A stretch of DNA of 64,000 bases from an uncultured Flavobacteriaceae bacterium (GTDB taxonomy: Bacteria > Bacteroidota > Bacteroidia > Flavobacteriales > Flavobacteriaceae), in the NCBI GenBank assembly GCA_947502975.1, contig CANNBV010000003.1, positions 186,001 through 250,000 on the forward strand, in the 5' to 3' direction. This document shows, one piece after another, positions 45,011 through 47,593 of the stretch. A model generated the notes under the pieces. That model searched no databases, had not been told where the DNA came from, and saw nothing but the letters and a program-made list of their open reading frames with translations. The position numbers and the translations under genes are program-made. Numbering within the stretch: position 1 is the first letter of the stretch; every line of letters starts with the position of its first letter.

Positions 45011-45050
45011 GTTTCATAAAATAATCCAATTTAAGATGAATTTACCTGAA

Positions 45051-45210
45051 GAAGTGCGTTAGGGATTGAAACGGCATCCTTTTGTTTTTATTAATGAAAA
45101 AACCTTTAAATTAGTAAATGGCGTTTCACTAGTAATTGATTCCTGCTTTCAGAGGAATAACAAAAAACAAAAGATATAGTGGAAAGCCTGACCCTTTAGG
45201 GTAACGCCCA
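45051..45210. ncRNA. Structured intergenic element (candidate RNA)
   Basis: The 200-base gap after the lipoprotein gene holds a folded sequence. GCGTTA (45056-45061) pairs with TAACGC (45202-45207), closing a domain. CTTTTGTTTTT (45079-45089) pairs perfectly with AAAAACAAAAG (45163-45173), 11 base pairs. CCCT/AGGG (45192-45201) is a terminal hairpin. Strings such as GGGATTGAAACGGCATCC and AGATATAGTGGAAAGCC look like conserved core sequence. I recall similar elements between genes of other flavobacteria, but cannot name a family. Confidence 0.5.
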
Positions 45211-45634: not shown

Positions 45635-46192
45635 TTATCTGGTTTCAGCTTCTGAAATGATAAACGGGTACGCGTCTTTTAATTCTTGTAATTCGGCTTC
45701 ATTTAGCTTATCTACTGTCTTTTTTAAAACGGTTTTGCAATAAGACTCTCGTAATTCATAGTAAGCTTTGGTGAGTTCGTCTTGTACTTCAATAAACTGA
45801 TTGTATTTTGAGTTTCTATCCGATTGTAATGAGATCACAGCTTTCGAAGGATTGTCTGATGATGTCGCTGTTTTACCACCATTGCAATACGCACAGCTAC
45901 CATCGCCATTATTATCAATAAAAGCTTTTGCTAAATCTTTTACTTCAGATAATGTCACGATGTCCTCGTCTACCATAATTTCATTTTTTGAATTAATGGC
46001 GATTTTTAAAATATTTCTTTCTGGAATAGGAGAAGTACAGTCTTCGCCTGGAGGGCATTCATTTGGTAGCTTTCTATAAATGCCTTGGTCTTTAGGAATT
46101 ACAGCCGTTACTAAGAAAAAAATTAATAATAAAAATGCGATGTCAGCCATAGACCCCGCATTTACTTCTGGGCGTTCTTTTGTTCGTCTCAT
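45635..46192 (-). CDS. ExbD/TolR-family energy-transducing protein
   Basis: This 185-residue protein has a short basic N-terminus, one membrane helix (about residues 13-35, SMADIAFLLLIFFLVTAVIP, with the conserved Asp17) and a periplasmic domain. ExbD works with ExbB and TonB to power outer-membrane receptors. Unusually, the periplasmic part has Cys pairs, NECPPGEDCTSP and GSCAYCNGGK, and no exbB or tonB is adjacent. Its stop abuts the preceding plus-strand gene. The tiny-ORF cluster lies immediately upstream on the same strand. Confidence 0.9.
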   Translation of the reverse strand: MRRTKERPEVNAGSMADIAFLLLIFFLVTAVIPKDQGIYRKLPNECPPGEDCTSPIPERNILKIAINSKNEIMVDEDIVTLSEVKDLAKAFIDNNGDGSCAYCNGGKTATSSDNPSKAVISLQSDRNSKYNQFIEVQDELTKAYYELRESYCKTVLKKTVDKLNEAELQELKDAYPFIISEAETR

Positions 46193-46259: not shown

Positions 46260-46391
46260 TTAACGCATGTGGTGGTGTAGGCGTTTCCAAGAGGTTTGAT
46301 CGGTTGGAAAGCTCAAGATACGTTTGTTAGAAAATAAATTTTCTTCCGTGATGCCTTTAAGATGTTCTGATATTTTGATGATTGATTTCAT
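46260..46391 (-). CDS. Tiny ORF A: 43-residue peptide
   Basis: An ATG-TAA ORF encodes 43 residues with an amphipathic start (MKSIIKISEHLKGITEENLF), a middle SNKRILSFPTDQ and a basic C-terminus TSWKRLHHHMR. It lies 67 bases before exbD on the same strand. Its leader contains the same 17-base string (minus strand TTCATCAATCAAAAAAA, 46399-46415) that precedes ORF B. The end (Trp followed by basic residues) recalls the C-termini of ORFs B and C, though overall similarity is low. No function is known. Confidence 0.6.
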   Translation of the reverse strand: MKSIIKISEHLKGITEENLFSNKRILSFPTDQTSWKRLHHHMR

Positions 46392-46437
46392 TTTTTGATT
46401 TTTTTGATTGATGAATGATGATTTTAAAGAGACGTTA

Positions 46438-46524
46438 TTATCTGTAACGCCTCTTACTGTTCCATGTGTTAGTTTTTGTACCGTTTAATGTTTGAGTTAA
46501 TTGATTTGTGTTTAAAGTTCTCAT
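46438..46524 (-). CDS. Tiny ORF B: 28-residue peptide, paralogue of C
   Basis: The 28-residue ORF begins MRTLNTNQLTQTLN and ends in NTWNSKRRYR. It matches ORF C at 20 of 28 residues. The last eight residues (WNSKRRYR) are identical in both while four codons differ synonymously (AAC/AAT, AGT/AGC, AAG/AAA, AGG/AGA), a signature of selection on a peptide. The peptide is strongly basic at its end with no membrane segment. It is separated from ORF A by 46 bases. Confidence 0.7.
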   Translation of the reverse strand: MRTLNTNQLTQTLNGTKTNTWNSKRRYR

Positions 46525-46575
46525 GATTATATTTTTTTTGATTGATGAATTAAATTGATGAAATAAAAGTTATTA

Positions 46576-46662
46576 CTATCTGTAACGTCTTTTGCTATTC
46601 CATACGTTAGATTTTGTACTTTGTAATGTTTCTGTTACTGTGTTACTGTTTAAAGTTCTCAT
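46576..46662 (-). CDS. Tiny ORF C: 28-residue peptide, paralogue of B
   Basis: The 28-residue ORF begins MRTLNSNTVTETLQ and ends in NVWNSKRRYR, with TAG as stop. It is the first of the three in transcription order, 51 bases before ORF B. Residue changes relative to B are conservative (Thr/Ser, Leu/Val, Gln/Glu and similar) and the basic tail is invariant. Both start with ATG AGA ACT TTA AAC. Confidence 0.7.
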   Translation of the reverse strand: MRTLNSNTVTETLQSTKSNVWNSKRRYR

Positions 46663-46921
46663 AATTGTTGTTTTTTAATTGATTATACTAAATAGACGAC
46701 AGAGAATTAATTTTGTTACAGTACTATGCATAACAAAGTAATAAATTAACTAATTTTAACATATTTTGATGTTTTCTGATAGGAGTGGAGCATTATAAAG
46801 ACTATTTAGGTACAGTTATTGTTAAATAGTTATAAAATATAGAGTTGTAGACTTATGTTTTGATAGAAAAAAATATCTTTGAACCATATTTCTATACTTT
46901 TAACCCTTAGTTAGAGGATAC
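46663..46921. other. Divergent spacer with promoter elements
   Basis: This 259-base AT-rich region separates the minus-strand tiny ORFs from the plus-strand gene at 46922. On the plus strand TATCTTTG (46874-46881) matches the -7 consensus. An imperfect inverted pair, TGTTACAG...ATAACA, lies near 46714-46736 and could be a binding site for the minus-strand transcript. I see no other gene in it. Confidence 0.5.
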
Positions 46922-47593
46922 ATGAGATTTTTATTTACATGCTTTTTCATTTTTGCATTTTGTACGGTGCATGCGCAAATTGACTCTAAAAAGAAGTCGG
47001 GGAAAATAATTCCTGCTATTGAAGCCCCTAAAGATTCAACTGACAGTAAAAAGATATTACCTAAAAAACCAGAACAAAATGACCAATTTAGTGGGGTGAA
47101 ATCTCCAACAGTTATTGGAAAGTTAGAGTTGCCTAAAAAGGAGTTTTCTATGTTTCCACAAGAAGAGTTTGGAAACCCTGGGGAGTTATACACTAAAAAA
47201 TTAGATAAAATTGAAAAAACGCTGCTACCTGAAGGGCATGGAGAAAATGCTGGATTAAAGGAAGATGCATATTGGGGTGATTACAAAACAACTTCTAAAT
47301 CTATAAGGGTGCTTTATAGAGATTATTCAGCTATAGACGGCGATTTATTACGAGTTTATGTTAATGATGATATTATTCAGCCAAGAGTATACCTAACTCA
47401 AGGTTTTAGTGGTTTTAAATTAGACTTAAAGGACGGTTTTAATGAAATTAAATTTCAAGCTATAAATACTGGTGCATCTGGCCCTAACACAGCAGAGTAT
47501 AAAATAGTTGATGAAAACAACAAAGTAATTTCAAGTAAGGTTTGGGCACTTGCCGTTGGTGTGAAAGTAACTGTTGTGATTGTTAAGGAATGA
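46922..47593 (+). CDS. Secreted protein of unknown function
   Basis: The 223-residue exported protein has a signal peptide (about residues 1-19, ending CTVHAQ). A Lys/Pro-rich linker follows (about 20-100), then a beta-rich domain with SKSIRVLYRDYSAIDGDLLRVYVNDD, GFSGFKLDLKDGFNEIKFQAIN and VKVTVVIVKE at the end. The domain looks like a beta-sandwich but I do not recognise it. Its stop lies directly next to the convergent aldo/keto reductase stop. Confidence 0.7.
   Translation: MRFLFTCFFIFAFCTVHAQIDSKKKSGKIIPAIEAPKDSTDSKKILPKKPEQNDQFSGVKSPTVIGKLELPKKEFSMFPQEEFGNPGELYTKKLDKIEKTLLPEGHGENAGLKEDAYWGDYKTTSKSIRVLYRDYSAIDGDLLRVYVNDDIIQPRVYLTQGFSGFKLDLKDGFNEIKFQAINTGASGPNTAEYKIVDENNKVISSKVWALAVGVKVTVVIVKE

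Follow-up and report, generated by a model that had tools for sequence, protein, structure and literature searches.

Short products of extracytoplasmic function (ECF) sigma regulons are known from the envelope-stress response of enterobacteria, in which they include small proteins as well as the sigma-E small RNAs. A short gene with a Trp/Lys-rich segment is likewise typical of the radical S-adenosylmethionine (SAM) cyclophane class of ribosomally synthesised and post-translationally modified peptides (RiPPs), such as darobactin. Here, we describe tandem genes for very short basic proteins upstream of exbD in a 64,000-nucleotide stretch (the window) of an uncultured Flavobacteriaceae bacterium (assembly GCA_947502975.1, contig CANNBV010000003.1, positions 186,001 to 250,000). 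The hosts of such arrays belong to a group that is not known to have Hfq and the array products are tandem basic proteins; we know of no sequence relation between them and the enterobacterial envelope-stress small proteins.

By promoter class, the arrays resemble the ECF-type SM6 promoters of Flavobacterium psychrophilum, for which induction was seen in freshwater and on agar very poor in nutrients (PMC9723704). The available text of that study names genes of the type IX secretion system, Band-7 and others and does not name such peptides; the likeness does not imply that the ECF factors are orthologous. A further parallel is found in the systems linked to the phage shock protein (PSP) response, in which a PadR-like regulator stands beside HAAS and PspC domains and is proposed to sense membrane stress (PMC11237479). 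The genome studied here likewise carries a PadR run with PspC and a sub-threshold HAAS match; the accessible portion of that paper describes no microprotein targets, and the link to our arrays is the common operator only. A Zobellia paper names a PadR gene, its available part holding nothing that bears on the arrays (PMC5613140). Our results suggest that the array products are envelope-stress microproteins acting through a common C-terminal tail, a reading to which we assign a probability of roughly 55%, with a molecular target that can only be inferred.

Conservation and distribution of the small genes

Three minus-strand open reading frames (ORFs), C, B and A in 5'-to-3' order, occupy the gap of about 730 bases between the start of exbD (46192) and the next gene (from 46922). 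Their coordinates and their lengths of 28, 28 and 43 codons agree with the preliminary description of this DNA, as does the resemblance of B to C, which match at 20 of 28 residues. The last eight residues of the two are the same, while four of the eight codons are synonymously changed (AAC/AAT, AGT/AGC, AAG/AAA, AGG/AGA).

The ratio of nonsynonymous to synonymous substitution rates (dN/dS) among relatives of B and C was 0.234 over codons 2–28 and fell to 0.074 over codons 21–28, where the proportion of synonymous differences (pS) was 0.63 (4000 sampled pairs from 154 distinct sequences). In the same 154 sequences Ser23 is encoded from both Ser codon classes. This calculation and the hairpin counts below were restricted to copies with a length of exactly 28 residues. 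For A, dN/dS was 0.21 on the 137 pairs with at least 70% nucleotide identity, and 0.34 on all 1540 pairs of 56 sequences. The coding selection and B/C paralogy proposed earlier are thus borne out, and a peptide pair is present in each of 7 of the 11 other genomes of the same genus, with exbD as the next called downstream gene. A check for the outcome named beforehand as refuting, broken frames over a conserved RNA structure, showed the frames to be conserved; the conserved hairpin described below lies mainly 3' of the last copy, so that it does not explain the conservation of the inner copies. Judged by these ratios, C, B and A are under purifying selection and conserved as proteins, and the ORFs are almost certainly translated microproteins. 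The products are basic, with a net charge of +4 to +8 across 137 distinct 28-residue peptides, and lack a hydrophobic stretch: the Kyte-Doolittle mean over 15 residues is −0.16 at most for these and 0.41 at most for 51 A peptides.

Of 299 Flavobacteriaceae genomes, 108 were matched at E≤1e-4 and 129 at E≤0.1 by a profile of 22 members of the 28-residue family; a search of 40 genomes (its own and relatives) gave 12 with a peptide match at E≤10, the 7 same-genus genomes among them. Of 275 confirmed stretches in named-species genomes, the best 80 were retained, corresponding to 79 loci, among which the family occurs in Jejuia, Hyunsoonleella, Lacinutrix, Algibacter, Flaviramulus, Olleya, Aquimarina, Winogradskyella and other genera. 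The loci L009–L153 yielded 98 distinct arrays (135 before removal of duplicates), which represent the best-scoring matches and are biased to closer relatives; a single histidine-kinase fragment among 159 distinct profile matches was excluded. The arrays consist of 39 single copies, 47 pairs, 8 triples, 2 of four and 2 of five copies, with gaps of 33 to 114 nt between copies, except for three of 167, 231 and 261 nt. A second family, of 43–44 residues and often ending in WKGTKRYAH, is represented in the window by A; a hidden Markov model (HMM) built from 51 A peptides detects a member no more than 450 nt downstream of the array in 74 of 98 cases.

No curated model in Pfam (single members), NCBIfam, PHROGs, PADLOC or the PDB fits B or A, and the isolated weak library matches had E-values of 0.014 (one of 22 B members) and, at best, 0.091 (single members of 68 A). 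A literature search with tail and start strings gave no paper, and of the papers listed by other searches none dealt with these peptides, judged by title. The earlier remark that no described family is known therefore holds, and B/C and A apparently form an undescribed class of bacterial microproteins.

Promoter, putative operator and hairpin

An alignment of the upstream regions of nine genomes revealed a long conserved block, which was profiled on 89 arrays and spans about 80 bases in many genera. In 89 of 98 arrays its core, GTAAC-N16-CGTC, lies no more than 150 nt from the first copy, against an expectation of 0.01 from shuffled sequence. A longer promoter pattern occurred in 66 of the 299 genomes and never in reversed form. 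When 30 of the loci from this search were read by eye, 16 preceded B-type peptides, three 37-residue peptides, two other short peptides (L202, L209) and one an ECF gene (L196). The others preceded an ankyrin-like exported protein (L207, L211; own-genome counterpart C2:433803), 84/85-residue proteins (L195, L200) or other exported proteins (L208, L213), and two (L190, L194) look like chance matches.

Among 30 of the 35 sigma loci of its own genome that were examined, L175 alone carries GTAAC-N16-CGTC before its own sigma gene; L167 has a match without an ORF after it. L175 encodes an ECF factor with sigma regions recognised by Pfam, then an anti-sigma-like protein, so called from its position and size and matching no anti-sigma model, and then DUF4252 (E 4.7e-28). 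A search of 60 genomes found 55 orthologues of this ECF factor, and all 30 of those examined had the element within 200 nt (shuffled 0.0). In pattern, the promoter-like element of the arrays is the element upstream of this one conserved ECF sigma gene. Its presence in both sets, 89/98 arrays and 30/30 orthologues, argues strongly that the arrays belong to the ECF regulon, which we regard as very probable, with overlap between ECF factors possible.

An operator-like site abuts the array −35 on its 5' side, in the arrangement TACTTTG-N5-CATAGTACT, and its pattern recurs in most arrays (Table 1) and never in the reversed control. In its own genome, the nearest copy, mismatched at one position, is 63 nt upstream of a run of DUF4870, PadR and PspC genes; PadR, DUF4870 and PspC were named by Pfam, and the HAAS match in the last gene fell below the cut-off. 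A similar site also lies upstream of 13 of 30 PadR orthologues (shuffles 0.1). PadR is a candidate regulator of the arrays, somewhat more likely than not, at a lower degree of confidence than for the sigma factor. A direct repeat further upstream is a possible response-regulator site.

A hairpin with a stem of at least 7 pairs follows the last 28-residue copy in 35 of 81 cases, vs 3 of 73 for inner copies, its 5' arm being formed by the K-R-R-Y codons. Single positions show the pair types TA/TG/CG and AT/GT/GC, which are compensatory. The hairpin goes with peptide A, occurring in 34 of 65 arrays with A and in 1 of 16 without it; by this measure it often divides the 28-residue genes from the 44-residue gene.

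Table 1. Position of the array elements and adjacent features within the window
Feature	Position	Strand	Basis or remark
Direct repeat GTTAA-N5-GTTAA, candidate response-regulator site	46746..46760	-	in 81/98 arrays
PadR-like operator TACTTTGTTATGCATAGTACT, adjoins −35 element	46720..46740	-	CAWAGTACTGTAAC in 86/98 arrays
ECF-type promoter core	46683..46719	-	−35 GTAACA (46714-46719), −10 CGTC (46695-46698), GTAAC and CGTC 16 bases apart; conserved GTATAA follows
Peptide C, first 28-residue copy MRTLNSNTVTETLQSTKSNVWNSKRRYR	46576..46662	-	ORF list; HMM family
Leader element ATTCATCAATCAAAAAAA before B	46533..46550	-	CATCAATC/ATCAATCAA before 55/77 inner B copies
Peptide B, second 28-residue copy MRTLNTNQLTQTLNGTKTNTWNSKRRYR	46438..46524	-	ORF list; 20/28 residues as in C
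Hairpin, 11 bp with one G-U, then T-rich; terminator/attenuator-like	46427..46455	-	covers the stop codon of B and its K-R-R-Y codons
Leader element ATTCATCAATCAAAAAAA before A	46399..46416	-	element before 55/74 A genes
Peptide A, 43 residues, second family	46260..46391	-	HMM from 51 A peptides
exbD (ExbD/TolR), 3' of array, possible read-through	45635..46192	-	PF02472, E 2.8e-19
Divergent exported protein	46922..47593	+	no Pfam match; weak phrog_12858 match
Flavo-1 RNA (RF01705), intergenic near exbD	45040..45197	+	Rfam, 49 bits

The C-terminal tail, proposed mechanism and alternatives

The B tail reads W-N-S-K-R-R-Y-R, and the A tail is often W-K-G-T-K-R-Y-A-H. The strict pattern W-x3-[KR]-x-[YF] is matched by 48 of 71 distinct A peptides, and the W is kept in 66. 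Behind the same promoter, the 37-residue peptides of L193, L199 and L203 (e.g. ...SKRVQWAEYRNYNR), from genomes of other genera without a B match, end in W-A-E-Y-R-N-Y-N-R and similar tails; they are in tandem in L193 and L199, where TTCATCAATCAA forms part of one coding start. A 44-residue peptide in L209, also behind this promoter, has a similar tail. We tentatively propose that this tail is a common docking motif, the least certain step of our reading. As homology of A and B was not shown by profile comparison (probability 3.5%), a common tail could reflect convergence on one partner, undetectable old relatedness or, in part, chance.

In the proposed mechanism, C, B and A most likely form one transcription unit, here perhaps extending into exbD, with small basic proteins as the product. 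As long as cells are not stressed, the operator next to the −35 would be covered by a PadR repressor encoded in the DUF4870-PadR-HAAS/PspC run; once the envelope or nutrient supply is stressed, PadR would leave, and the ECF sigma factor, released from its anti-sigma, would drive strong transcription. The tandem copies and the hairpin would together yield many 28-residue and fewer 44-residue peptides, which are predicted to be cytoplasmic from their charge and lack of a hydrophobic stretch. At the weakest step, the linear tail motif would dock on one common partner or anionic surface. A broader version, in which the 28-, 37- and 44-residue microproteins under one ECF promoter, mostly in tandem, converge on the docking tail, with feedback to translation by way of the repeated CATCAATC mRNA leader, as a protein counterpart to the sigma-E small RNAs of Hfq-bearing bacteria, seems improbable as a whole.

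Several observations weigh against the envelope-stress microprotein reading. The B family had no match in 170 of 299 genomes at E≤0.1 and the ECF factor was present in 55 of 60, so the sigma factor must have other duties. Nine arrays lack the element by the N16 test, two of them the own-genome relatives C4:393894 and C2:648549 (the outliers in L032 and L037); in L018 the element lies further up, in L136 it is one base off, and the other misses are L033, the second array of L127, L133, L141 and L145. Near variants precede other ECF genes of its own genome (GTAAC-N17-CGTC in L156, GAAAC-N16-CGTC in L181), so a second sigma factor could read the array promoters. The PadR step is weakened by a stricter operator pattern, which matched in its own genome alone among 199, and by the PadR orthologues, only 13 of 30 of which have a similar site upstream, 84 to 1214 nt away (shuffles 0.1); with a related palindrome before another winged-helix gene (L216, L217), the operator-binding factor is not proven. 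As regards the tail, 23 of 71 A peptides fall outside the strict pattern; A of the window ends in WKRLHHHMR, a variant of its own genus that has lost the KRY part found in many relatives (W-K-G-x-K-R-Y-A-H), and the A/B profile result given above counts on the same side. The AlphaFold model of A is middling, with two helices, a predicted local distance difference test (pLDDT) score of 73 and a predicted template modelling (pTM) score of 0.33.

If translated, these peptides would constitute a large unannotated stress-protein class in a major marine bacterial family, in which a promoter block is conserved over many genera, yet the genes it drives match no family library searched. Experiments could take hold of the ECF sigma factor, the PadR-like operator, the tail as a defined target for mutation and the peptides themselves, which are of a length that allows their synthesis as bait. 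The 28-codon genes could also serve as a positive control for small-gene finders.

A first alternative is that the basic-aromatic peptides are autoregulators, which set translation under stress by binding to their own mRNA at its CATCAATC leader repeats (candidate RNA CATCAATCAAAA), and perhaps to other mRNAs. The leader string shared by A and B, described earlier as 17 bases, is in fact 18 bases long (ATTCATCAATCAAAAAAA), and a TTTCATCAATCAAAAA-like leader stands before 55 of 77 inner copies of B and before 55 of 74 A genes, vs 1 of 386 ORFs of at least 200 residues in L075–L153. For these control ORFs the first ATG served as the start, which may be incorrect for some of them. The variable distance from element to ATG and the net charge of the peptides also fit RNA binding. 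However, the element stands before just 29 of 98 first copies and may merely aid initiation. The phylum is said to make no use of Shine-Dalgarno sequences. We consider autoregulation unlikely.

The small ORFs might instead be leader peptides, the translation of which controls exbD by attenuation or ribosome stalling. They lie 5' of a same-strand gene with a hairpin past the last 28-residue gene, and their tail residues keep a near-constant distance from the stop codon. The tie to exbD drawn in the preliminary description stands for part of the set: only 49 of the 98 arrays have exbD downstream at a distance of 1300 nt or less, and it is the next called same-strand gene in 43. Against this role, the next called ORF is on the opposite strand in 37 of 98 (for at least two of these, L053 and L116, the call is an artefact that overlies exbD), L019, L068 and L151 have exbD on the upstream side of the array, as many as five tandem copies occur and the hairpin tracks peptide A. 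With a following exbD in only half of the arrays, the leader-peptide role was set aside as very unlikely.

Tandem, near-identical short genes would also suit RiPP precursors, in which an enzyme of the radical SAM or a similar type would cyclise a C-terminal core (W-N-S-K-R-R-Y) behind a conserved leader, with export of the product. A core of Trp, Lys, Arg and Tyr resembles cyclophane or Arg-Tyr linked cores. Unlike those of darobactin-type RiPPs, the array loci gave no match to CxxxCx-hydrophobic/aromatic-C (0 of 79 loci, 760 kb), sought in the first half of frames of at least 200 residues, with 11 of the 79 loci shorter than 10084 bases and other and distant maturation enzymes not searched for. 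The recurring neighbours are ExbD, a 2-oxoacid dehydrogenase (named by eye) and an exported protein. RiPP precursors of the radical SAM type were therefore set aside, and we give the idea little credence.

That the peptides are type I toxins or antimicrobials, as their short, tandem and cationic nature might suggest, is scarcely probable, and this candidate was set aside because the hydropathy values above leave no membrane-spanning segment; phages, plasmids, viral contigs and PADLOC also gave no match. A structured or base-pairing RNA with the frames as a by-product would account for the conserved hairpin, leader and start region, but as a sole explanation it is refuted by the tail dN/dS of 0.07 with its Ser codon-class switches and by inner copies that keep the peptide mostly without the hairpin, and with no Rfam family at the array at gathering score its chance is negligible.

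Genomic surroundings and related loci

A homologue of the divergent exported protein gene beside the array (Table 1) lies upstream of the array in 68 of 98 cases. A mobile-element origin was set aside, since neither phages (801-base DNA query) nor plasmids (one family member as protein) gave a relative, and of 30 pattern stretches in viral contigs none was confirmed as one.

Within its own genome, the 801-base stretch gave four further partial DNA matches in three places. At C4:393868, a B relative lies 5' of histidine-kinase-like and response-regulator-like genes (named by eye); at C2:648535-648616, in two pieces, a shortened B relative is followed by an A-like ORF; and at C2:433799 the promoter alone lies 5' of a small exported protein. 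The small ankyrin-like exported protein at C2:433803 (L004, L008; named by eye) has the ECF promoter core and no PadR-like site. The 84/85-residue proteins of L195 and L200, behind the same core, begin MELxLTTxDLxPLPEP..., and in L195 more small hydrophobic-ended proteins follow. In a genome of the same genus, a 36-residue minus-strand ORF (L033, 1498-1608) without the ECF promoter ends in WNSRRRYK and is possibly a remote relative.
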